Shown one piece after another: positions 22,660-64,000 of a DNA stretch of 64,000 bases; positions within the stretch are counted from its first letter, which is position 1; each line of letters opens with the position of its first letter. Source of the DNA: Verrucomicrobiia bacterium (GTDB lineage: Bacteria; Verrucomicrobiota; Verrucomicrobiia; Verrucomicrobiales; DEV007). The stretch covers positions 1 to 64,000 of the forward strand of contig JAUICH010000025.1 in NCBI GenBank assembly GCA_030427505.1. Reading direction: 5' to 3'. The notes under the pieces were generated by a model. That model was given only the letters and a program-made list of their open reading frames with translations, had not been told where the DNA came from and did not search any database. The translations under genes were made by a program, and so were the position numbers.

Positions 22660-22810
22660 AGATGGGTGGCTTCGGACTACGGCGTTGCTGTCGTGAAGTC
22701 CGCCAGATACCCTTCGAGAAATTCCGTCTGAGCCCGATTCAATGGGATACCCGGTTGACCAAGGGCGGGGGATTCGACTATTCCGGGGCGAAGCGCAAAC
22801 CGCCCCCGTG

Positions 22811-24370
22811 ATGAGCACCTTCCACCAAAGTCTCCCTTTCCTCCGTTCCCTCCTGTTCATTGTTTTCCTGATCTTCGGCTCCCACCAGGCACAGACCGTC
22901 GGAGAAACCACCCCCGCCTCTTCCTCCAAAAAACCCGACGTCCTCTTCATTGCCGTGGACGATCTCCGGCCCGAGCTGAGCATCTACGGCAGCCCCGTCG
23001 TCACGCCGAACTTCGAACGTCTCGCCGCTCAGGGGACCGTTTTCGAGCGGGCCTACGTGCAGCAGGCCCTCTGTCATCCCTCCCGCGTCTCCGTCCTCTC
23101 CGGCCGCCGTCCGGATACTACTGGCATCACGGACTTTTCGGTAAACCTCCGGGAAACCCTGCCGGACGCCGTCACGCTACCGCAGATGTTCACCGCCCAC
23201 GGCTACCAGACCGCGGGCTTCGGAAAAATCTTCCATACCAGGAAAGAAGACCCGATCTCTTGGTCGCGTCCGGTGTGGCATTCACCAAAGCAGGAATACC
23301 ATACCGAGTTTGGTAAGCAGGTGCTGGAATGGATCAAGACCGACTACCGGAAGCTGACTTTTACCTGGGACCTCGGCGAAGGCATCACCAAGTCCAAGCG
23401 CATGGGCGGCCTGCCCTGGGAAGCGCCGGACGTGGCGGACGGCGAACTGGTGGACGGAGACAACACCCGCGCCGCCCTGGAGCATCTTCACGAGCTGGCT
23501 GCCGCGCGGAAAGCCGATGGCACGCCCTTCTTCCTGGCGGTGGGTTTTCACAAACCGCACCTGCCCTTCGTCGCGCCGAAGCGGTATTTCGATCTTTACG
23601 ATCCGGAACAGATCGAACTCGCGCCAAATCCCTTTCCGCCCTCGGGCACGCCGGACTTCGCGGTCTATAACTGGAACGACCTGCGTCACTACTATGGCAT
23701 CCCCAAGATCGGCCCCATGCCGGAGGACAAAGCGCGGGAGCTGAAGCACGCTTACTATGCCTGCGTCAGCTATGTGGATGCTTTGTTAGGGCGGCTCCTC
23801 GACGGCTTGGAGGCGGAAGGCGTGGCGGAAAACACCGTCATCCTCCTCTGGGGCGATCACGGCTGGCAACTGGGCGAGCATGGCATGTGGGACAAGCATT
23901 CGAACTTCGAAACTTCCACCCACTCACCCCTCATCGTCAGCGTGCCCGGTCAGAAGCCGGGTCGCACGGATGCGCTGGTGGAGTTCGTCGATATCTATCC
24001 CACCCTGGCCGATCTCTGCGGCCTGCCCCTGGACCCCGGTCTGGAAGGCGCCAGCCTCCGGCCCTTCATCGAAGATCCCACCCGTCCCTGGAAACCCGCC
24101 GCCTTCAGCCAGTACCCCCGCGTCATTCCCGGTCAGGGGCAGGGGATGGGCTACTCCATCCGCACGGACCGCTATCGTTTTACTGAGTGGATTGTCCCCG
24201 GCCGCGAAGACGAATGGCAGGCCTGGGAACTCTACGACCACGAGACCGATCCCCAGGAAAACGAAAACCTCGCCAACCTTCCCGAACACGCCGCCACGGT
24301 GACGGCGCTGCGGAAAATGCTCCACGAGGGGTGGAGGGGAGTGAGGATTCCGCAAACCAACGAGCCGTAG
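22811..24370 (+). CDS. Secreted sulfatase, iduronate-2-sulfatase-like, copy 2
   Basis: 519 aa from ATG 22811 (MSTFHQSL), with a signal peptide. Seen: DVLFIAVDDLRPEL, the formylglycine site LCHPSRVSVLSGR (C88), GKIFH, WGDHGWQLGEH, and a family-typical histidine in VGFHKPHLPF. The VDDLRPELxxYG start and GWQLGEHGMWDK are those of iduronate-2-sulfatase/choline-sulfatase-like S1 enzymes. It probably desulfates a polysaccharide outside the cytoplasm. It lies 150 bp after SulP on the same strand and may share a transcript with it. Confidence 0.9.
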   Translation: MSTFHQSLPFLRSLLFIVFLIFGSHQAQTVGETTPASSSKKPDVLFIAVDDLRPELSIYGSPVVTPNFERLAAQGTVFERAYVQQALCHPSRVSVLSGRRPDTTGITDFSVNLRETLPDAVTLPQMFTAHGYQTAGFGKIFHTRKEDPISWSRPVWHSPKQEYHTEFGKQVLEWIKTDYRKLTFTWDLGEGITKSKRMGGLPWEAPDVADGELVDGDNTRAALEHLHELAAARKADGTPFFLAVGFHKPHLPFVAPKRYFDLYDPEQIELAPNPFPPSGTPDFAVYNWNDLRHYYGIPKIGPMPEDKARELKHAYYACVSYVDALLGRLLDGLEAEGVAENTVILLWGDHGWQLGEHGMWDKHSNFETSTHSPLIVSVPGQKPGRTDALVEFVDIYPTLADLCGLPLDPGLEGASLRPFIEDPTRPWKPAAFSQYPRVIPGQGQGMGYSIRTDRYRFTEWIVPGREDEWQAWELYDHETDPQENENLANLPEHAATVTALRKMLHEGWRGVRIPQTNEP

Positions 24371-24676: not shown

Positions 24677-25396
24677 ATGAACAAGACCCTCGTTCTCAGT
24701 GCCTTCGTGGCGCTGACCGCCATTGCCGCCACCGCTACCTTGGTGGAGGCCCGCACATGGACCCAGGCCTCCACGGGCAAGACGCTGGAAGGCGACTTCG
24801 TACGCGTCCGCAACGACAACGTGATGATCAAGATGGCGGATGGCAACATCCGCGAATTGCCCTTGGCCATGCTGACGGACGAAGACCGTTCGTTCGTCGA
24901 ATCCCAGGCCACCGCGGGCGAGCCCATGAAGGCCCCGGAGGGTGAGACCACCGTGTTGCTCAGCGGCGTGCACCTTTGCTGCGGCGGTTGCGAAAAAGGC
25001 ATCAACGCGGCCGTGGACGGCCTGGAAGACGTGGAGATCGACGTGTCTCGCAGCGATGAAACCGTGACCATCAAGGGCAAGTCGGGCGACGCGGCGCAGA
25101 AAGCCGTCACCGCCATTGCCGAAGCCGGCTACTACGGCAAGTCTGACAGCGACGCGATCAAGATCGCCGATGCGGGCGCGGACAGCTCGGAAGCCGGCTC
25201 CGTGTCCGTCTCCGGCGTGCACCTTTGCTGTGGCAGTTGCGTGAAAGCCGTGGACCGCGCCATCAAGACCCTGGGCGACGGCGTGGAACACACCGCCAAG
25301 TCCAAGGAGTCCGATTTCGAAGTCACGGGCAAGGTCAGCCCCGCCGCGGTGCTGGCGGCCCTTCAGGCTCAGGGCATCAACGGGACGGTGAAATAA
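24677..25396 (+). CDS. Exported SHD1-domain protein with two heavy-metal-associated-like repeats
   Basis: 239 aa. A signal peptide (1-25) leads into an SHD1 (SLA1 homology 1) domain: RTWTQASTGKTLEGDF... and ELPLAMLTDEDRSFV (~26-78). Two HMA-like domains follow, each opening with a near-identical motif: GVHLCCGGC (C101, C102, C105) and GVHLCCGSC (C184, C185, C188). Standard HMA domains have CxxC; here a third cysteine precedes it (C-C-x-x-C). A periplasmic metal-binding or redox role is likely. A terminator follows, so it is probably monocistronic. The repeats look like an internal duplication. Confidence 0.75.
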   Translation: MNKTLVLSAFVALTAIAATATLVEARTWTQASTGKTLEGDFVRVRNDNVMIKMADGNIRELPLAMLTDEDRSFVESQATAGEPMKAPEGETTVLLSGVHLCCGGCEKGINAAVDGLEDVEIDVSRSDETVTIKGKSGDAAQKAVTAIAEAGYYGKSDSDAIKIADAGADSSEAGSVSVSGVHLCCGSCVKAVDRAIKTLGDGVEHTAKSKESDFEVTGKVSPAAVLAALQAQGINGTVK

Positions 25397-25430
25397 GGGG
25401 TTCTAGAACTTCCATAAGATTTTTTCAGCA

Positions 25431-25469
25431 AAGGCCGCGGAATCCTGCGAACTGTGGGACCGCGGCCTT
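25431..25469 (+). terminator. Terminator-like hairpin after the SHD1-HMA gene
   Basis: AAGGCCGCGG (25431-25440) pairs perfectly with CCGCGGCCTT (25460-25469) over a 19-nt loop, followed by GCATTTTCG. The T-run is short, so efficiency is uncertain. Confidence 0.65.
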
Positions 25470-25567
25470 GCATTTTCGTGGGTTCACGCCTCAGTATGGC
25501 GCTTTCCGGGGGGGAAGATTTCTGTAGGTGACGATGTGCCACCCCGGGGCGGGAACACTGGTACACA

Positions 25568-28500
25568 ATGGCTGATTCAAGAAGCGGCATAAATAGCGGC
25601 ACGGAGCCTGACGCGGATACCGGCACTACCCCCAGCGTGGGACATACGCCCGAAGGCACAGCACCTGAAGAAGGCAGCGGCGCGGCCGGAAATCCGGCAA
25701 AACCGGCCGGGAAAAGCGAAGAAAAAGGCTCCGGAGCCGAAAAAGCCTCCGATGCGCCCGCTCCAGCCGAGAGCAAGGCGATAGAGGCCGCCGAAGAAGC
25801 GCCCGGCGTGAAGCCGGGTGGAGACCAGGAGGAGCTTGCGAAGCCCGCCGAAGACCCTGTGGAGGCTCCGGAACCCGGCGACGAGGCTGGAGAGGCCCCT
25901 TCAGTTCCCTCTCCAGACCCAAAGGAAGCCACAGACCCGGCGCCAGTGTCCGGAGACGAAGACGGGAAGGACGCCACGGCGCCTCTGACACCCCAGCCCC
26001 CTGAAGTGCCGGACAAAGCAGCTCCACGGGAAACCAAACCAGTCCCTGGCCCGGGCGGCAAAGGCGGCTCAGCTCCGGCGGCTGACGAAAAGAAAGGGCC
26101 GGAAACGTCAACTCCAACTGCGGAGACGAAAGCGGAACCGGAGTCCCCAGCCGCTTCCCCAGAGGCGGAGCCTGCCGCCGGAACCGTGGAAGAGTCCAAC
26201 TCTCAGACCGGGAAGTCGGAAGCGGAAGGCGATTCTGGCGCGGAAAAGGAACCCGTTTCGAAAGAGGAGGAGAAAGAGGCGCCGCCCGCTGAAGATCTGA
26301 AAGAAGAAACGAAGGCGTCCTCCGGCGTGGATGAGTCGGGTTCCCTGGGAAGCGAGGCTTCCGGCGCCAGCGCGACCGAGGCGGAAAGACCAACTGATTC
26401 ACCGGAAGAACCCAAAGCGGAAGCTCCCGAGCCGAAAGAGGAGACCGAAAGTAAGACGGGACCCGGGTCAGCTTCCAGACCGTCTCCGGAGCCCTCCGCC
26501 TCTGAGCCGCCCCCAGCCCCGAAAGGGGAAAGGGAAGGGGACGCCAAGGGAACCGGAGAGTCCAAACCCGGTCCGGAGCCCGTTGGCGCGGAGCCAGCCG
26601 GGGAAGAAGCAACGAAGCCCTCCCTTGGAAGTGCCACGTCAGGGGAGGCAAAGCCCTCTGGCGAGACCCTCTCGGGGCCTGAAACGGCGGCTTCTTCCGC
26701 CGGGGAGGCGCCCACGCCGGAGCCCGAGCCCACGCCAGAGGAGCCCCAGTCCGAGCCTGACGAACCTGAAGCGAAGAAAACGTCAATTTCGCCCGCTGCT
26801 CCCCAGACTCCGGCCCCTGCGACGCCCGCCCAAGCAGCTTCCTCCGCCGGAGTTCCGCGCGAGCCAAAAGCGGAGGTAGAGACGAAATCCAGGCCCGCAA
26901 GCCAGGCGGAGCCCGAAACGAAGGCCGCTGATGCCACCGCCTCTCCCGCTGGCGGCGAAGACAGCCCCAGGCCTGAGGCTCCCGCGCCTTCGGCACTGGT
27001 CAGGAAACTGATCTCGGGGAAACGTTCCGGGACCACGCCGAAGGCTCCACCGGAGGACCGTGCCAAGGCCGAGCCGGCCCAAGAAGCCCCGAAACCTTCC
27101 GCCGGTCCTCCCGCGCCCGCCGCACCGCCTGTAAAGGAGGGGGATAAGGAGGCTCCGATGGGCAAGGCCGAATCTGCTTCGGAGGCGAAGGTTTCTCCCC
27201 CCGCCGCCCCACCAGTTGGCGGGAAAGAGCTGGCGGCGGACACAAAGCCTAAATCGGAACCGGTATCCGGCGGCAAACCCGCCGAGGAAGCGGCTAAGCC
27301 GTCCTCTGGAACTTCCGAACCCAAGAAGGCGGATTCGTCCACCAAGTACGTGACCATTCCGCTGGCGAACCCGAAAAGCGCAACGGTTCCGGTTCCCGAC
27401 AAACTGCCCGACCCCGAGACCTTGAAGAAAGCCGCTGCCTTGCTGAAGGCGGAACGGCACGGGCAGGAGCCGGCTGATAAGCCCAGGGTAAAACCCGCTG
27501 CTCAGCCAGAGACGGCAGCAACCGCCACCCCCCCGCCGAAACCGGCGGAGCCGAAAGAGACCAGCGGAGGGGACTCGAAGAAGGAGGTCCCCAACAAAAC
27601 CGGCGAACCGGCGTCCGCCAAGGGAGAAACCGTCCCTATTGCGCCAGCCGTGAAAGCGGAGCCCAAAGAAGTCCCGGCCGGCCCTCTGTCGAAAACTGAA
27701 GAGACGCCCGGCAAGACTTCAGAAGAGAAGAAAGCCGCCGAACCTGAGCCCAAACCTTCCGCAGCGAAGGATAAGAACCCGGAGCCGGACAAGAAAGACG
27801 CAAAAGACGAAGCGAAAGCGGCTCCACCCGGACCGGAGCCGGTTTCCGACACCGCTCCGGAAGCGGAGGAAAAGGAACCCTCCGGAAAAGACGCCCCGGA
27901 TCTCGCCGGGAAAAAACCCGCCCCGGGCCTGGCAGCCGCTGGAGCCGTGGCGGCGGTCGCCGCCGCTTCCTCCAAGGAAGATGAGAAATCCACCAAAGAG
28001 GCTAAGACGGAGCCCGCGCCGGAGACGGTAGCGAAAGAATCGCCGGAGCCAGAGAAAGCAGAGGCGGAAGACAAGCCTGAGAAGACCTTGGCCGAACCGG
28101 CCGAAGGGAAACAGGAAGACAAGCCTTCCGGGAAAGAAGAGAAAGAACCCGCCGAAGAGAAGCAGCAGGAAGAGGCTTCCGAGGCAAAAGAGGAAGCGCC
28201 TGCCGAGGGCAAGGAGGCAAAACAAGCGCCTCCGAAGCCAGAGGCAAAGCCGAAACCGGCTCCGGCTCCGGCCGTGGCCGCCAAGGTGGTCGCTCCGGAC
28301 CCGGTGCTCTTTCCAGCAAAGGACACGAAGTTTGCCTGGCTGCTGAAGCCCTGGGGAGGGTCCCTGGCGCTCCTGGTCCTGACCCTGGTCCTAATCGTGC
28401 CCGGCACCTGGATCCTGCCCATGATGGACCGGGATGAGCCGCGCTTCGCCAATGCCACCTGGGAAATGATGGAGCGGAGCGAGTGGGCCATTCCGTATTT

Positions 28501-30040
28501 CAACAACGAGTACCGGTTCGACAAGCCGCCGCTCACCTACTGGTGGATGCGCGTGCATTACTGGATGCTGGGCAAGACCGAGCTGGCGGCCCGCCTCCAC
28601 TCCATCGAGGCCGCGTGGCTGACCGCCATCGTCATCATGTTCCTGGGGCGCTTCCTCTACGGTGCCCGCGCCGGTCTTCTGGCGGGCATCGGGTGGTTGA
28701 CCTGCGTCCAGGTGCTTATTCATGGGCGTCTGTCCGTGGCGGACATGCCCATGCTCCTGGGCGTCACCGCCGCCATGTACGCGGCGGCCCGGCTGTTGCT
28801 GGTGGATGTGGAGCCGAGGCGTTGGGGAAAATGGTTCTGGTTCTTCTCCCTGGCGCTGTCCTTCGGCTTTCTGGCCAAAGGGCCCATTGCCCTGGCGGTG
28901 CCACTGCTCAGCCTGCTGCTGGCGCGCTTCGTCTTTTACCGGAAGCGCCTGCCCTGGCGGCGGCTCCAGTTGTTTTCCACCCTTGGCGTCATTCTCGTGG
29001 TGGTGGGCGCATGGGGCATTCCCGCGTTGCTCAAGACGAAGGGGCTGTTCTGGGACGTCGGCATTGGGAAGCACGTCGTGGAACGCGGTACCGGCGCTTT
29101 CAATGGCCGGGCGTCTCTGCCGGTCGTGTATTACCTCATCACCGTCTTCATCAGCCTCTTTCCCTGGAGCGCCTTCATGCCCGCGGCCTTGAGCAAAGCG
29201 GGGGAGAAACGCCGGGACGCGCGGAACGGCCTGCTCATGGGCTGGTTTGTGGCGCCCTTCCTCATCTTCGGCCCGTACTCCACTCAGTTGCCGCACTACA
29301 TCATGCCGGGTTTCCCGGCCTTCTTCCTCCTCCTGTTCCGGTTCGGGGCCTGGCCGCAGGTGTTCGGTCTCTTCCGCCGCCGCTGGTTCCGCACCGTGGC
29401 GATCTGCTTTGCGCTCTTCGTGATCGTTCTCGGGGGCGTCTTATTCTACTTCCGGAAGAACGAGTTTGAGGACTTCCCCGTGCCGCTTTATGCCATGGGC
29501 TACGCCGCCGTGGCGCTGCTGGGGGCGGCCGCCGCGCTCCCCTGGTTCATCCGCTACCGGAAGCCGGCTTTCATGGGGGTGGCTTTCCTCATCATGGGAA
29601 CCGCTACCGCCTTTCTGTGTTACAACATCCGGGAAGCCCATCCCGTTATGGCCATGCGCCAAGTGTGGGCGGATCCGCCGCCGGAAGGCGCCGCCCCGGT
29701 CACGGAGTTCCGCGCCCGGGAATTCACCGAGCCCAGTCTCGTCTTTTACAGTCAGCCGGGCTGGGACATGAAGGGCAAGATTGAAACCGCCATCCCCTGG
29801 GTGAAGCGCAAGCCGGGACGTGTCCTCGTCATCATGCTGCGGGAATGGCAGTTGGACGACGTCATCTCCGGCTTTTCCCGAAAAGGGATTAAGGGCGTCT
29901 GGCCCTCTAACGACTACCATCACCAGATTTACGACACCCTGGAAACGGAGTCCACCGAAGGCCTGGAGATCGGCACCTACGCCGGTTTCAACGCCGCCAA
30001 GACCAGTTGGGTGGAAGTGATGGTGTTCCGGTCTTTGTAA
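25568..30040 (+). CDS. ArnT/PMT-type membrane glycosyltransferase with a ~900-residue disordered N-terminal region
   Basis: 1490 aa. Residues 1 to ~905 are almost wholly Pro, Glu, Ala, Lys, Ser and Gly, with no hydrophobic segment: an acidic/basic low-complexity tail predicted to be disordered and cytoplasmic. Membrane helices begin at ~925. The catalytic loop MDRDEPRFA (D954, D956, E957) and FDKPPLTYW are signatures of lipid-linked-sugar glycosyltransferases of the GT39/GT83 (ArnT, PMT_2) group. Further helices contain FLAKGPIALAVPLL and STQLPHYIMPGFPAF. It probably transfers a sugar from a polyprenyl carrier to a lipid or protein on the outer face. The frame is open throughout, and the single ATG 25568 is the only plausible start. 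No partner gene is adjacent. Confidence 0.85.
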   Translation: MADSRSGINSGTEPDADTGTTPSVGHTPEGTAPEEGSGAAGNPAKPAGKSEEKGSGAEKASDAPAPAESKAIEAAEEAPGVKPGGDQEELAKPAEDPVEAPEPGDEAGEAPSVPSPDPKEATDPAPVSGDEDGKDATAPLTPQPPEVPDKAAPRETKPVPGPGGKGGSAPAADEKKGPETSTPTAETKAEPESPAASPEAEPAAGTVEESNSQTGKSEAEGDSGAEKEPVSKEEEKEAPPAEDLKEETKASSGVDESGSLGSEASGASATEAERPTDSPEEPKAEAPEPKEETESKTGPGSASRPSPEPSASEPPPAPKGEREGDAKGTGESKPGPEPVGAEPAGEEATKPSLGSATSGEAKPSGETLSGPETAASSAGEAPTPEPEPTPEEPQSEPDEPEAKKTSISPAAPQTPAPATPAQAASSAGVPREPKAEVETKSRPASQAEPETKAADATASPAGGEDSPRPEAPAPSALVRKLISGKRSGTTPKAPPEDRAKAEPAQEAPKPSAGPPAPAAPPVKEGDKEAPMGKAESASEAKVSPPAAPPVGGKELAADTKPKSEPVSGGKPAEEAAKPSSGTSEPKKADSSTKYVTIPLANPKSATVPVPDKLPDPETLKKAAALLKAERHGQEPADKPRVKPAAQPETAATATPPPKPAEPKETSGGDSKKEVPNKTGEPASAKGETVPIAPAVKAEPKEVPAGPLSKTEETPGKTSEEKKAAEPEPKPSAAKDKNPEPDKKDAKDEAKAAPPGPEPVSDTAPEAEEKEPSGKDAPDLAGKKPAPGLAAAGAVAAVAAASSKEDEKSTKEAKTEPAPETVAKESPEPEKAEAEDKPEKTLAEPAEGKQEDKPSGKEEKEPAEEKQQEEASEAKEEAPAEGKEAKQAPPKPEAKPKPAPAPAVAAKVVAPDPVLFPAKDTKFAWLLKPWGGSLALLVLTLVLIVPGTWILPMMDRDEPRFANATWEMMERSEWAIPYFNNEYRFDKPPLTYWWMRVHYWMLGKTELAARLHSIEAAWLTAIVIMFLGRFLYGARAGLLAGIGWLTCVQVLIHGRLSVADMPMLLGVTAAMYAAARLLLVDVEPRRWGKWFWFFSLALSFGFLAKGPIALAVPLLSLLLARFVFYRKRLPWRRLQLFSTLGVILVVVGAWGIPALLKTKGLFWDVGIGKHVVERGTGAFNGRASLPVVYYLITVFISLFPWSAFMPAALSKAGEKRRDARNGLLMGWFVAPFLIFGPYSTQLPHYIMPGFPAFFLLLFRFGAWPQVFGLFRRRWFRTVAICFALFVIVLGGVLFYFRKNEFEDFPVPLYAMGYAAVALLGAAAALPWFIRYRKPAFMGVAFLIMGTATAFLCYNIREAHPVMAMRQVWADPPPEGAAPVTEFRAREFTEPSLVFYSQPGWDMKGKIETAIPWVKRKPGRVLVIMLREWQLDDVISGFSRKGIKGVWPSNDYHHQIYDTLETESTEGLEIGTYAGFNAAKTSWVEVMVFRSL

Positions 30041-30070
30041 AGCCTCTTCCCGGTTCGCGCTTTTTCCAGA

Positions 30071-30163
30071 AAGGTGGTCCTCGACCTCCGGGGGGGGCGA
30101 GCCGGACCGGCTGGAAACTCGCGAGCCGGGCGCTCGATTCATTGCGGCGAAAGCTTCGCTCAA
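30071..30163 (+). repeat. Dispersed repeat R1, copy c (partial)
   Basis: Begins AAGGTGGTCCTCGACCTCCG and ends GCGGCGAAAGCTTCGCTCAA, like copy d, but lacks the right-hand module. It lies between convergent genes, so it may also act in transcript ends. Confidence 0.6.
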
Positions 30164-30174
30164 CCGCTACCTGC

Positions 30175-30984
30175 CTAACCGCCCGCCGCCACCTTCGCCT
30201 TCTCCATCGCCCGTCCGCGTTTCCGCAAGCGCCGCAGGGGAATGCCGCAGGCCACGCCAAAGAAGATGCCGATGAATCCGCCCACCAGCACGTCGCTGGG
30301 GTAGTGCGCTTTTTGATACATCCGCGCCCAGCCCACGCCCCCGGCGAAGATCGTCAGCGGCACGCCGATCTGAGGGCACGCGACGAGCACCGGGGTGGCC
30401 GTGCCAAAGGCCGTGGCCGTGTGGCCGGAAGGGAAGCCTTGGTAGCCGGACGAAGGCATGGGGCCGTAAAATTTGTCGATCGCGTCCGTGCGGGGCCGGG
30501 GCCGGCCCATGGTGAAGCGGTAGGCATTGCACACCATGCCCGCCAGAGTGGCGGAGATGACCGTGGCCATGGCCAGGCGCTGGAGGTAGCGGGACTTCCG
30601 GAACTTGCCCAGCAGCCACAAGCCCACGGCGAAGGCCAGGTTGTACTGAGCGAAGTCTCCCCAGAATGCGATCTGATCCGCCAGGGTCTGGAGGGCTTCG
30701 GAACGGTTCTTCTTGATGGCCCGCAGCCATTCGTAGTCGTGCGGATGGATGATCCACCAGGCCGTGGCCAGCACCGCCAGCGTCGCGGCCAGGCTGGCCC
30801 AGCGGTGGCGGTTGATGAAGTGGGTGGCGCTCCGCCAGACGCCCCGGGCGTCTTTCTTGATCGACCCGGGAATGCGTCCGGAAATTCTTGTGACCGTTGC
30901 CGATGCCGCCGCCTTCTCCGTGACGGGGGAGTTTTCTTTGAGGTCCTCGGGCTGGGGCTGGGCGGGTTGCGCGGCGCTATCCAT
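30175..30984 (-). CDS. PAP2-family membrane phosphatase
   Basis: 269 aa from ATG 30984; an upstream in-frame start adds 18 atypical residues. A soluble Ala/Pro-rich lead is followed by about five membrane helices and the three PAP2 motifs: MGRPRPRTD, GFPSGHTATAFG with the catalytic His, and RMYQKAHYPSDV. Such enzymes remove phosphate from lipids, for example undecaprenyl pyrophosphate or phosphatidate. It is convergent with the ArnT-like gene; a polyprenyl-phosphate recycling link is possible but unproven. Confidence 0.9.
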   Translation of the reverse strand: MDSAAQPAQPQPEDLKENSPVTEKAAASATVTRISGRIPGSIKKDARGVWRSATHFINRHRWASLAATLAVLATAWWIIHPHDYEWLRAIKKNRSEALQTLADQIAFWGDFAQYNLAFAVGLWLLGKFRKSRYLQRLAMATVISATLAGMVCNAYRFTMGRPRPRTDAIDKFYGPMPSSGYQGFPSGHTATAFGTATPVLVACPQIGVPLTIFAGGVGWARMYQKAHYPSDVLVGGFIGIFFGVACGIPLRRLRKRGRAMEKAKVAAGG

Positions 30985-31146
30985 CGTGGGCACCCGTAGC
31001 CTCCCCTGGGGCTGGCGGAAAGCAGAAATTGCCACCACGCGCGGTCACGTGACGGGAGTGCCACCGGTAGGCTTCCCGATTGACGGGGAAACGTTTGTCC
31101 CGCACTGTAGGCTCGATCTCCGGCATTCCTGGACTCGTTTCCGACA

Positions 31147-32207: not shown

Positions 32208-33623
32208 TTAGGGGAGGTTTTTACGCCACTCCAAGAGCTGTGTTTTCAGCTTTTCCGTCACCTCAAACTGCTCCGCGATGAGGTTTTCCGACTCCTTGGG
32301 ATCGCTCTCCAGGTCATACAGCTCCGGGCTCGTTCCGTCCGCGTTGATGAGGAATTTCCATTTCCCGTCGCGCACCGCGAGGTTGGGACTGGCGTCGTGT
32401 TTCGCGCCGGGGCGGAGGTAGGTCTTGTCCCGGCCATATTCCCAGAAGAGTGGTTTCTGGCGTTCCACCGGGCCTTGGCCCAGGAGCGCCTGGCTCATGT
32501 CCTGACCGTCAAAGTCCACGCCGTCCGGCGTCTCCACCAGGGCTAGCGCGCAGAAGGTGGGGAAGAAATCGACCGTTCCCATGATGGTCGCCTCATCCGT
32601 CTCTCCCGCCGGGACGTGTCCGGGCCAGCGGGCGATAAAGGGCATGCGGATGCCGCCTTCGTAAATGCTCCACTTCCGCCCGCGATAGCCGCCGGTGCTG
32701 CCGGGCGGTTCCACGCCTTCTTTGTAGTAGCGCGGCCAGGCGGTGGGGCCGTTGTCGCTGGTCAGGACGATCAGGGTCTTTCCGGCCAGACCCAGCTCGT
32801 CTATTTCGCCAACCAGCCGTCCGATCTGGCGATCCATCTCCGTCAGGACAGCGAAGAACTTCTGCTCGTAGGGGTTGTCCGTAATGGCGGCGAATTTCTC
32901 TGCCTCGCCCTCCTTAGGCACATGGGCGTCGTGCACGTCGTTAAACCACAGGTGCAGGTAAAAGGGCTCGTCTTTCTTCCGCCGGATGAAGTCGATGGAC
33001 CGGTCCACGTAAATGCCGCTCATTTCGTGCTTTTCGACGAAGTTGATCTCGCCGTGCCCCAGCTTAGCGCTCATGTCCTGAAGCTTGCCGGGAAAGAGAA
33101 TCCGGTCGCCGAGCCCTTCGAAAGAAACGAGGTGCTCGTCAAAACCGTAGGTGGAGGGCAGGGGCGCGTCATCCACATCCCGGCCGCCGCCCATGTGCCA
33201 CTTCCCGAAGTGCGCCGTGGCGTAGCCCGCCTTCTTGAAGGCCCGGGCAATGGCCGGCGCTTCCGGATCCAGGAAGTCCGGCATGCCTTTCTTCCGGTTC
33301 GTCTTCCGGTCGTTCAGGTAGGAGGAAAACCCGTGCCGGGCCGGGAAATGCCCCGTGGTCACGCCCACGCGGGAGGGCGAACAGATCGGAGAGACCACGT
33401 AAAAATTCGTCAGCTTCAGCCCCTCTGCCGCCAGCGCGTCCATGTTTGGGGTCTCCACCTTGGTATTGCCAAAGCAGCTCGGGTCTCCGTATCCCATGTC
33501 ATCCACAAAGATGAAGACCAGGTTGGGATGTTCCGGCGGAGCCTCCTGACACGCTCCCCATTGTGGTGCGGCAAAGAGCGTGGCGAAAACGAAGAGGAAA
33601 CCAGTAAAGAGGGAACGGCGCAT
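32208..33623 (-). CDS. Secreted sulfatase (family S1), copy 3
   Basis: 471 aa. A signal peptide (1-25) is followed by LVFIFVDDMGYGDPSC, the formylglycine site ICSPSRVGVTTGHF (C81), GKWHMG, TSDNGP and GGIRMPFIARWPGH. All of the core metal and substrate residues of the S1 family are visible. Exported sulfatases of this kind desulfate algal or animal polysaccharides. The enzyme ends 33 bp from the convergent DUF3108 gene. It resembles copy 4 (56736-58217) in overall order and the C-terminal LYDLESDPKESENL. Confidence 0.92.
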   Translation of the reverse strand: MRRSLFTGFLFVFATLFAAPQWGACQEAPPEHPNLVFIFVDDMGYGDPSCFGNTKVETPNMDALAAEGLKLTNFYVVSPICSPSRVGVTTGHFPARHGFSSYLNDRKTNRKKGMPDFLDPEAPAIARAFKKAGYATAHFGKWHMGGGRDVDDAPLPSTYGFDEHLVSFEGLGDRILFPGKLQDMSAKLGHGEINFVEKHEMSGIYVDRSIDFIRRKKDEPFYLHLWFNDVHDAHVPKEGEAEKFAAITDNPYEQKFFAVLTEMDRQIGRLVGEIDELGLAGKTLIVLTSDNGPTAWPRYYKEGVEPPGSTGGYRGRKWSIYEGGIRMPFIARWPGHVPAGETDEATIMGTVDFFPTFCALALVETPDGVDFDGQDMSQALLGQGPVERQKPLFWEYGRDKTYLRPGAKHDASPNLAVRDGKWKFLINADGTSPELYDLESDPKESENLIAEQFEVTEKLKTQLLEWRKNLP

Positions 33624-59998: not shown

Positions 59999-62900
59999 TC
60001 AGTTCTTATTGATGGCCTCGTCCAGGTTCATGAGCTGGTTCGCGACCATGATCCAGGACGCGAACTCGCCGGGGGCGGGATGGGTTTCTTTCTGAGGCGT
60101 CAGCATGTCATCGACGAGCCGGGCGGCTTCCGCGTGGTCGGAGTCGTACTCCGACTTGAACGCAGTCAGGGAACGCATGACGACGTCCACCTCGTCCGCT
60201 TCGAAGGGACGGCCCAGGAGCAGCAGACCCATCTCGTGGATGCGCGCTTCGTCGCTGTCCGCTTCGTTCATGACCTGGAGCGCCAGGCTGCGGGCGGCGC
60301 GGACGAACTGCGGGTCGTTCATCAACACCAGGGCCTGGAGGGGCGTATTCGTCCGCTCGCGGCGCACGGTGCAGCTTTCGCGGTTCGGCGCGTCAAAGAT
60401 GACCATGTCCGGCGGCGGAGCGGTGCGTTTCCAGAAGGTGTAAACGCTGCGGCGCACCTCGTCTTCGCCATGGTCCTGGAAGAAGGTCTGGGTGTTACTG
60501 TTCGTGTAGCCCACGGCTTCCCAGATGCCGGAGGGCTGGTAGGGACGGACGCTTTCGCCGCCCACGGTGCGCACCAGCAGGCCGCTGGCGGCCAGGGCCT
60601 GGTCCCGCAGCATCTCCGCGTCCAGGCGGTAGCGGGGGCCGCGGGCGAGGAGCCGGTTCTCCGCGTTCAGGCCTTTCAGTTCGGGCCGGAACTGGGAACT
60701 CTGCCGGTAGGTGGAGGACAGGACCATCATCCGGTACATGGCCTTCATGTCCCAGCCGGAATCGATGAAGCGCAGCGCCAGCCAGTCGAGCAGCTCGGGG
60801 TGCGAGGGCGGCTCGCCCTGGGTGCCGAAGTCTTCCGCCGTCTTCACGAGGCCGACGCCGAAGAGCTCCTGCCACATGCGGTTCACCGTGACGCGCGCGA
60901 CGAGCGGGTTCTTCGTGTCCACCAGCCAGTTGGCCAGGCCCAGGCGGTTCTGCGGCTGCCCATCCTGTTGCGGTGGCAGGAAGTCCGGCGTGCCGGGGCT
61001 GACTTCCTCGCCTGGCTTATCATATTCGCCACGCTCCAGCACGAAGGCGCGCGCTTCCTGGTCGGGATTGTCCTGCATGACCAGGGTCGTGGGTGCGGCG
61101 CGGTGAATGGCGTCCAGTTCGCGGGCCACCTGGATTTTCTCCGCGAGCAGGCCCTGATAGTCCGGCTGCGTTTTCTGGAAATAGAACTCTTTCAGCAGCT
61201 CCAGCTCTTTTCCGTCCAGCTTTCCGGCATCTTTCTGTTTCGGGTCCGCTTTGTCCTTAGCCTTCTTCGCGGCTTCCAGCTTGGCCGCCTTGGCGAGGAG
61301 GCCGGGAATCTTCCCAGACTCTTGAAGGGATCCGACTTCTTCGGGCAGCAGATCGCGATGGTAGATCTCGATTTCCTGGAGAGAGATCCGGCCCGACTCG
61401 TCCTTCGCGGCCGTGTTGACTTTCAGGGTGGCCTGGGTCTTGAAATCCCCGTTCAGTAGGCCCATGCGCTCCAGCGGATACCGGCTGGCGAGCAGTTCTC
61501 CGTTCAGGAAAATGTTCAGCCCTTCCTCAGTGCCGGAGCCGTCATAGGTAAAGGCCAGGTGATAGATGCCGCCGGGCTTGATGCGCCGGATGGTCATGAT
61601 GCGCATGACCTTGCTGGGCCAGGCTTCGACCATTTCCAGCGCAATGCCGTCCATGTCGTTGAAGACCACACGATAGCCGCGTTGCTGGGGCGAGCCGTCC
61701 GTGGCTGAAAAGAGCTCAAGGCGCTCGGGCATCTTCTCTGGGGCCCGGAACCGCAGCACGATGGAAAAGGGCTCGTCCTTCGACAGCGCGGGAACCGGTT
61801 CCTCCGGGACGTCTGCCTGCTCCCGTCCGATGCTGGTGGAGTAGGTCAGGTCCGGGTGGGACAGGGTCTTCACCGTTTTCTGGGAGTCCGGGTCGGCCAG
61901 CCAGGCCTCGAAGCCGGCCTGGTGCTCTTTCTTCAAGGCCGCCAACTGGCCGTCCAGGGCCTTCACCTTGGCGCTCAGCTCTTTCTCCCGCTGCTCCGTT
62001 TCCGGTTTCGGATAGACGCGGATGACCGGCGGGGTGTCCGGGATGTTTTGGTCCATCGCCCGCTGCGTGGTGTTATTGAAATAGGCATACAGCCGGTAGA
62101 AATCCTTCATCGTGAGCGGGTCGAATTTGTGGTTGTGGCAGGACGCGCAACCGGCGGTCAGGCCCAGCCAGACGGTGGCGGTGGTCTCCACTCGGTCCAC
62201 GGCGTAGCGGGCGAGGAATTCTTCATCGATGGCGCCGCCTTCGCTGGTGGTGACGTTGCAGCGGTTGAAGCCGGTGGCGACGAGCTGGGCCTGGGTGGGG
62301 TCCGGCATCAGGTCGCCCGCGATCTGCTCCCGGGTAAAGCGGTCGAAGGGCACGTTGTCGTTGTAGGCCTGGATGACCCAGTCGCGATACGGCCACATGA
62401 CGCGGCGGTTGTCCAGGTGCAGGCCGTGGGTGTCGCCATAGCGGGCGGCGTCCAGCCAGAAGCGGGCGCGGTGCTCGCCATAGGCCTCGGACTTCAGCAG
62501 GCGGTCGACCACCTTTTCATAGGCCTGGAAAGACGGATCGGCGGCGAAGGCCTCGATCTCTTCCACCGTGGGCGGCAGGCCGGTGAGGTCCAGGGTCACG
62601 CGGCGCAGCAGGGTGTAGGGGTCCGCCTGGGTGGCGGGCTGGATGCCTTCCTGAGCGAGGCGGGCCAGGACGAACTGGTCGATCTCGTTATACGGCCACT
62701 CCGAGGCGGCGGCGGGAATCTCCGGATACTCCGGGGCGATGAAGGCCCAGTGCGCCTCCCACTCCGCGCCTTCCGCGATCCACTGGCGCAGCAGGGCGAT
62801 CTGCTCTGGCGTGATGGTCTTATGCGAGTCCAGCGGGGGCATGCGCTCGTCCGGGTCTTCGTGGACGATGCGCTGGAAGAGGGCGCTTTCTTCTGGTTTA

Positions 62901-63874
62901 CCCCGGATGACCACGGCGGGTTCGCCATCTCGCGGGGTGAAGACCGCTTCCTCCACGTCCAGACGCAGACCAGCCTCCCGGTGACCGGAGTCCGGGCCGT
63001 GGCAGTAGAAACAGTTGTCCGAAAGGATGGGGCGAATGTCGCGGTTGAACTGCACTTTCCCGTCCGAGCCGAGAGCGACGAACTTCGTGGGCGGACGGTT
63101 CTGGGAACCGCTGGGCACGTCGGCCAACAGCATGCGCTGGTACTCCTGCTCCGGGGTCTCTTCCAGGGAAACCAGGGTGGGAGACGGCTGAGCCGGGCTG
63201 GGTTCTGGATTTTCCGCCAGAGCCGTGGAATCTGGAGTTGCCTCTTCGTGCTGAGGGCTCTCAGGCGCCGGAGTAGTGCTGACCTCTTCCACCTCGGCCA
63301 CCTGCTGGGGGACTTCCAGGGCTTCGGGGACTGGCGTCCTCTCTTCTTTCCCGGATTTCTCCTCCTCCGGTGCCTTGGCGGGCGCTCCGGCGGCCAGGTT
63401 CCCGCCCGGGGAATCCTCCTCTCCCTCCACACCTGAGCTGGAGCCTCCTCTGCCCATCAGCGTGAACAGGACCAGGGCGGCAAAGGTGGCGATCGCGGCC
63501 CAGGCCAGCCACCTGGCCTTGAGGCGGGCCGGGTTTTTCTCCGCATCCGCTGCTTCTTCCGTCTCGGTTTCCGGGGCGGTGTCCTTTTTCAGCGAAGCCC
63601 CTGCCGCCACCGTGGCCGTGGCCGTGGCTGCCGAGACACCGGGCATGGTGACGACATTGGACGGAGTCTCCAGGCCGGCCAGGAGGGCGTGGATCTGCTC
63701 GTCCCCGTCCAGGAGGGCGTGGATTTCGTTCTGGAGACGCCAGGCACGGCGGGCCTCGGGGCTTTCAAGCAGCCGCGTTTCCAACTGGTGATGCTCCGCA
63801 TCCGTCAGTTCGCCGCTGTGCAGCCGGGCCAGGAGCCGGTCAAGCGTCTGTTCTTCCTTGTTTCCGCTCGTCAT
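59999..63874 (-). CDS. PSD1-type (DUF1549/DUF1553) cytochrome protein with N-terminal anti-sigma-like region
   Basis: 1291 aa. Residues 1-50 ([33 protein letters not shown]) resemble the cytoplasmic part of FecR/anti-sigma proteins. One membrane helix (~121-140) and a Pro/Glu linker follow, then a PSCyt1 heme module ([10 protein letters not shown] ~290; [23 protein letters not shown]), DUF1549 (~385-610), a LamG-like domain (~690-830) and DUF1553 (~935-1230) with [20 protein letters not shown]. One protein could thus sense outside and control a sigma factor inside. It overlaps the upstream sigma-like gene by 35 bp and is followed by DUF1501. Confidence 0.85.
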
Positions 63875-64000
63875 GGTGATGATTGAAAGGTTCGGTTGGT
63901 CCGCCGTTCTCGTTCTGTGGGTCCCCTTTACCGTCCGCGGTTCCGCTTCCGTTCAGGCCCAGTTTCCGTTCCACGCAGCGGGCCAGGTTCTGCTTCGCCC
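63840..64000 (-). CDS. C-terminal end of a probable ECF sigma factor (partial)
   Basis: The open frame enters from the right edge and stops with TGA at 63842-63840. It begins AKQNLARCVERKLG, typical of the end of region 4 in PVC ECF sigma factors (RA+..L..CVER+L), then a low-complexity Gly/Asn/His/Lys tail. Its position directly before an anti-sigma-like protein supports the call. Only about 53 residues are visible, so this rests partly on context. Confidence 0.45.
   Translation of the reverse strand, partial: AKQNLARCVERKLGLNGSGTADGKGDPQNENGGPTEPFNHHHDERKQGRTDA

Follow-up and report, generated by a model that had tools for sequence, protein, structure and literature searches.

Among the closest known systems, two have been described in the literature. 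The first is ArnT of Cupriavidus metallidurans (5ezm, 5f15), a 578-residue membrane transferase for which PMC7801869 names D158 and K203 as ligand contacts (we infer an offset of 3 between the numbering of that paper and that of the chain). The second is formed by SpmX and PopZ of Caulobacter, whose disordered regions are described in PMC8849385 as proline- and acid-rich, SpmX being in addition a membrane protein. The window analysed here (the whole stretch of 64,000 nucleotides) contains a gene that can be compared with both: an open reading frame on the forward strand, with an ATG at 25568 and a stop codon ending at 30040, encodes 1490 residues, exactly as originally predicted, and would specify an ArnT-like GT-C/PMT-clan transferase preceded by a leader of about 905 residues rich in P, E, A, K, S and G. 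Judged from its sequence, the enzyme is of a known type and the novelty is a giant, lineage-specific disordered leader that is extreme in length. No report of a disordered leader on an ArnT-like enzyme was found in the titles and abstract openings listed from an open-licence literature library.

The transferase part and its neighbours

By sequence and model, the enzyme core is intact and ordinary, and its assignment to the GT-C/PMT clan is supported by several lines of evidence: (i), residues 906-1490 (28283..30037, +) match Pfam PF13231 (PMT_2; 41.2 bits, cut-off 26.1, E 2.5e-10) and PF02366 (PMT; 36.1 bits, cut-off 22.7, E 6.5e-9). (ii), 5ezm is the only solved relative recovered by sequence (E 1.7e-11). 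(iii), an AlphaFold model built from five sequences (pTM 0.69, mean pLDDT 68) adopts a GT-C fold, with many membrane helices followed by a periplasmic C-terminal domain, and its best two Foldseek matches in the PDB, 5f15 (E 4.1e-13, TMt 0.68) and 5ezm, are both ArnT. (iv), the motifs DRDEPRF, ADMPM and AKGPIA are invariant in the five aligned sequences. The membrane part had been placed from about residue 925 onwards, and this agrees with a first transmembrane helix predicted near residues 930-948 (28355..28411, +), where hydropathy and both structure models concur, and with the putative catalytic motif DRDEPRF at residues 954-960 (28427..28447, +), which aligns with DEGRY of 5ezm. The same alignment pairs DE..R, the K of KPP, the D of DM and the K of KG, besides an H and a Y, all of them site-lining positions; the acidic residue expected in periplasmic loop 1 is present, as is the conserved D...K pair. 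The two proteins share the fold of the catalytic part and its acidic, lysine, histidine and tyrosine site positions, but they are only about 20% identical and the C. metallidurans chain carries no such leader. Since the score against the NCBIfam ArnT equivalog PRK13279 misses the cut-off (127.3 vs 567 bits), we consider the protein ArnT-like and not ArnT. This genome has 14 PMT_2 matches, 13 of them over the cut-off, and the present one lies in the longest frame by far (1502 residues as a whole open frame from stop to stop, 1490 from the ATG; next 824).

The convergent neighbour is a PAP2-family phosphatase gene (30175..31038, -; PF01569, E 1.5e-22), and among the contexts of 13 relatives seven have a PAP2 relative adjoining the transferase, five convergently as here and two in line, which hints that the two enzymes may share a pathway involving a lipid carrier or lipid A. 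On either side of the region lies a sulfatase-like gene, one at 22742-24370 (PF00884 match) and one at 32208-33623 (recognised by eye from the translation). Between the first of these and the transferase, 24677-25396 encodes a secreted-looking protein in which an SHD1-like stretch (under the cut-off) lies beside what are probably two heavy-metal-associated segments, an unusual pairing. Near the end of the window, a 1317-residue frame (60002-63952, -) with a likely membrane helix and disordered linker resembles, by eye, a planctomycete-type cytochrome/surface-protein arrangement.

Coding status and physical character of the leader

The leader (residues 1-905; 25568..28282, +) is an open frame of frame-specific make-up, with residue counts of A163, P155, E143, K100, S81, G74, T56, D40 and V31 and few others; hydrophobic residues are scarce, there is a single Tyr, and Phe, Trp and Cys are absent. 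Its description as almost only P, E, A, K, S and G holds broadly, but T and D are also common, and two less simple islands and an Ala-rich stretch (residues 787-802; 27926..27973, +) depart from it. The first island is basic and was read from the translation (about residues 476-488; 26993..27031, +); the second (residues 589-632; 27332..27463, +) contains a predicted short helix at 616-629. The leader matches nothing in Pfam at E<=5 or in NCBIfam at E<=0.01. Tandem Repeats Finder returned four rows between 25000 and 30500, the sole long one being a two-copy 51-base repeat at 28094-28196. Recent tandem expansion was considered as the origin of the leader and rejected, self-comparison by BLAST at the DNA and protein levels giving the trivial match only.

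By every sequence test made, the leader is coding. The absence of any stop across the first 900 codons, to which the original prediction had drawn attention, is far from expectation: the leader contains no in-frame stop against means of 13.0 and 13.5 in sequences simulated from the same DNA with first- and second-order Markov models, none of the 1000 simulations with either model was stop-free, and the other two forward frames hold 14 and 27 stops. An effect of composition alone is indeed hard to square with the intact frame, the frame signal being whole along its length: when the three forward frames were scored by their likeness in composition to other disordered regions of this genome, all 20 blocks of 45 codons scored best in this frame, and the leader thus has no off-phase stretch. 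The amino-acid make-up in this frame correlates with the pool of those regions at r=0.96; the other forward frames give 0.30 and 0.32, and the three frames of the opposite strand -0.04, 0.57 and 0.39. The enzyme part shows the stronger codon bias (third-position A 0.05, vs 0.23 in the leader). Among 15 other ORFs with disordered regions, all but L078, L119 and L169 likewise have third-position A raised in the region by at least 0.04 over the flanks, and because disordered regions of this genome generally relax their third positions we do not count the weak bias as a non-coding sign. Translation of the leader, if any, would run into the enzyme, as no stop lies between them.

The leader is also predicted to be disordered, as had been proposed: it falls on the disordered side of a charge-hydropathy analysis and its make-up is that of the genome's other disordered regions. 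A single-sequence AlphaFold model of residues 450-953, built with no alignment and weak evidence when taken alone, gives pLDDT <50 for 395 of 504 residues; residues 450-925 are low-confidence coil apart from the short helix 616-629, the lone helix in the modelled part of the leader, around which block pLDDT rises to about 65. With 183 acidic and 113 basic residues, the charged fraction is 0.33, the net charge -0.08 per residue and the proline fraction 0.17. Charge patterning lies about 4 SD below shuffled order, that is, the charges are better mixed than in shuffles. Two points caution against reading a special meaning into this: elsewhere in the genome a region in L165 reaches z -3.8, with the other 12 regions tested ranging from -2.5 to 1.9, and the even mixing could be a plain consequence of KE- and EP-like wording. 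Taken together, the charged fraction, low net charge, proline content and well-mixed charges favour a swollen coil, whose radius of gyration would be close to 11 nm under a generic scaling law. By analogy with ArnT, whose fold the enzyme part appears to share, the N-terminus would face the cytoplasm, in line with the inner-face location first suggested. An extra membrane crossing is unlikely because the best 19-residue hydropathy of the leader, in the Ala-rich stretch, peaks at 1.29, below usual membrane-helix thresholds.

Relatives and other disordered regions of the genome

Usual relatives had been said to lack such a leader, and the survey bears this out. The enzyme part is matched in 133 of 386 genomes of the order at E<=0.001 and in 156 of 387 genomes of the phylum at E<=1e-10, two sets that overlap; counts of close relatives refer to the matches listed. 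Among the 91 relatives listed at E<=1e-60 (63 from the order and 28 further ones from the phylum), no frame exceeds 878 residues, compared with 1502 for the present one. Of the longer frames, nine were opened (G078, 878; G404, 877; G453, 804; G504, 709; G512, 706; G062, 682; G693, 681; G251, 675; G099, 646) and rejected as leader carriers, their upstream frame being without a disordered leader. A distant transferase relative, in G009 (L024, G009:C310; frame 855), carries by eye an apparent N-terminal GT2-type domain fusion, which, if so, would possibly place donor synthesis and transfer within one chain.

The position of the starts tells the same story. The catalytic motif can be read in 30 of 32 orthologue loci (two at contig ends lack it). 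In 29 of these 30, only 30-102 residues separate it from the first possible in-frame start (ATG, GTG or TTG), against 950 here; the exception, L015, has a start 300 residues upstream and was judged to have no leader. The median distance from first ATG to motif is 43 (range 25-85) in 26 of the 30; those left out are L015, the pair L008 and L050, in which the first ATG falls inside the domain, and L041, which lacks an ATG in that stretch. The orthologues thus resemble our protein in their enzyme parts (about 37-62% identity where aligned) and often in their PAP2 neighbour, but differ in starting close to the motif. No separate disordered ORF was found in 13 relatives' contexts (183 kb) by the rule used for the genome census, and descent of the leader from a once-separate upstream gene was rejected on these 13 contexts. 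Nor does a second genome carry the leader among the order and phylum relatives listed, a comparison set in which the genus is represented by this genome alone. Since the relatives examined lack both the long frame and the early start, the leader is probably an addition in this lineage. When 65 residues around island 589-632 were searched against 74 family genomes, matches at E<=1 appeared in 38 of them (this genome included), nearly all weak; the best foreign one (G033, E 3.2e-4) lies in a non-coding-looking frame, and the seven loci opened, which were SbcC-like, kinase-like, efflux-like and other proteins or non-coding-looking frames, showed no conservation.

Within its own genome, the leader is less isolated than the window suggests, similar regions being frequent. 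A census of 2.45 of 6.41 Mb (38%) yielded, by one rule, 27 ORFs with a long charged stretch of low hydrophobicity; the count is of stop-to-stop frames, some of which may be shadow frames. By this rule the leader spans 944 positions (12 before the ATG and some past residue 905) and the next longest region 458. Other carriers include a VWA/TPR protein, FtsZ, TatC, a 4-alpha-glucanotransferase and a Rho-like protein. Among the family genomes with matches, and with the reservation that contig ends cut some relatives, the FtsZ frame (916 residues) is the second longest (63 of 74 genomes) and the TatC frame (739 residues) the longest (66 of 74). From the census abundance and these lengths we infer a lineage prone to disordered regions, of which the leader would be the extreme among those scanned. 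The regions of FtsZ, TatC and the VWA/TPR protein share the amino-acid make-up of the leader and its relaxed codon bias, but they do not exceed 458 residues in the scanned part. When helices are counted by crude hydropathy, the leader is alone among the census regions in preceding a many-helix membrane protein: in L154 a region of 105 residues stands ahead of just one helix, while the regions of TatC and L194 sit between helices.

Two of these carriers were viewed individually. FtsZ (L157, 17275-19998; G000:C50) has nearly 590 residues past its conserved domains, partly of leader-like make-up. TatC (L111, 978-3194, -; G000:C6) has a disordered insert of about 150 residues between two membrane helices, in what we take to be a periplasmic loop; its acidic tail is long and ends in helix-hairpin-helix motifs. 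The matches to TatC in many family genomes are interrupted at about the same place, profile position 130.

Possible function and origin of the leader

On balance, we lean towards a standard ArnT-like enzyme bearing a swollen polyampholyte tail that is cytoplasmic and lineage-specific and serves probably as a spacer or tether. A membrane transferase using a lipid-linked sugar would have gained, in this lineage, an N-terminal disordered tail of about 905 residues that is translated in one piece with the enzyme. Extending from an N-terminus placed in the cytoplasm by the ArnT fold, this tail would form a swollen, solvated coil and take no part in catalysis. As a flexible spacer or tether, it may keep bulky neighbours off the enzyme, or use its few islands of less simple sequence to link the enzyme to partners in the cytoplasm, 589-632, with helix 616-629, being the candidate binding island. 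The tail would have arisen in a lineage prone to such growth, and part of its length may escape selection. It is tempting to speculate further that each copy of the enzyme carries its own cytoplasmic polymer brush of about 900 residues, covering a patch some 20 nm wide, which would space the enzymes, exclude neighbours or, by crowding one face of the membrane, favour infoldings. Membrane infoldings are reported for this bacterial superphylum. We hold the brush reading as a whole to be improbable.

The chief rival, which we regard as unlikely though the least so of those considered, is neutral or near-neutral growth, in which a lineage that accumulates long disordered regions extended the tolerant N-terminus of an enzyme by a translated, functionless leader. 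The absence of the leader from the relatives examined, the abundance of disordered regions in the genome, and FtsZ and TatC at or near the top of their family lengths are all consistent with it. Against it speak the 905 codons kept in frame with zero off-phase blocks, the lack of internal repeats that would mark recent expansion, charges spread more evenly than in shuffles, and a length about twice that of the next region; all four are still compatible with drift under selection for an open frame alone.

Two products from one frame, the shorter enzyme initiated internally around residues 903-913 (GTG) or at 531 (ATG) and the full-length protein as the minor form, seem improbable. While the GTG at 913 would give an N-terminus of orthologue-like length and AAGGAGG stands five bases upstream of ATG 531, the wording of the leader by itself produces 43 copies of GGAG, and Shine-Dalgarno-like motifs are hardly enriched in this genome (565 ORFs, first-ATG starts assumed; GGAGG 1.2% vs 1.1% shuffled, AGGAG 1.4% vs 0.35%). 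Nor was a sigma-70-like site found within 25200-30300 (0.3 expected).

The original prediction had offered a scaffold, a brush-like spacer or a condensate-forming tail, and of these the spacer or brush fits better, as a candidate, and the condensate is disfavoured. A condensate-forming or client-recruiting tail comparable to the proline- and acid-rich region of SpmX is, in our estimate, decidedly improbable. By proline content and net charge the leader does qualify as SpmX-like in composition, its 17% Pro and acidic excess recalling the SpmX and PopZ regions as described in PMC8849385, and FtsZ of the same genome has a region of like make-up. Unlike those regions, the leader is well mixed in charge and nearly without aromatics (one in 905 residues). 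SpmX, which is not a glycosyltransferase and has a region shorter than the leader, acts as a scaffold for a kinase, whereas here the tail is on the enzyme itself. The well-mixed charges and near-absence of aromatic stickers lead us to favour a spacer or tether. Finally, an assembly artefact joining a leader gene to an enzyme gene is highly improbable: the genome is in 56 contigs, but frame and make-up run continuously into the enzyme and the 13 relatives' contexts hold no separate disordered ORF.

If the tail of our preferred reading, a spacer or tether on an ordinary transferase, is functional, the protein would be an extreme natural test of a long disordered tail on a bacterial membrane enzyme, with the leaderless orthologues as ready controls. 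If the tail is neutral, it would illustrate the length that such regions can reach on an enzyme when the lineage tolerates them, a point of relevance to annotation and to models of disorder evolution.
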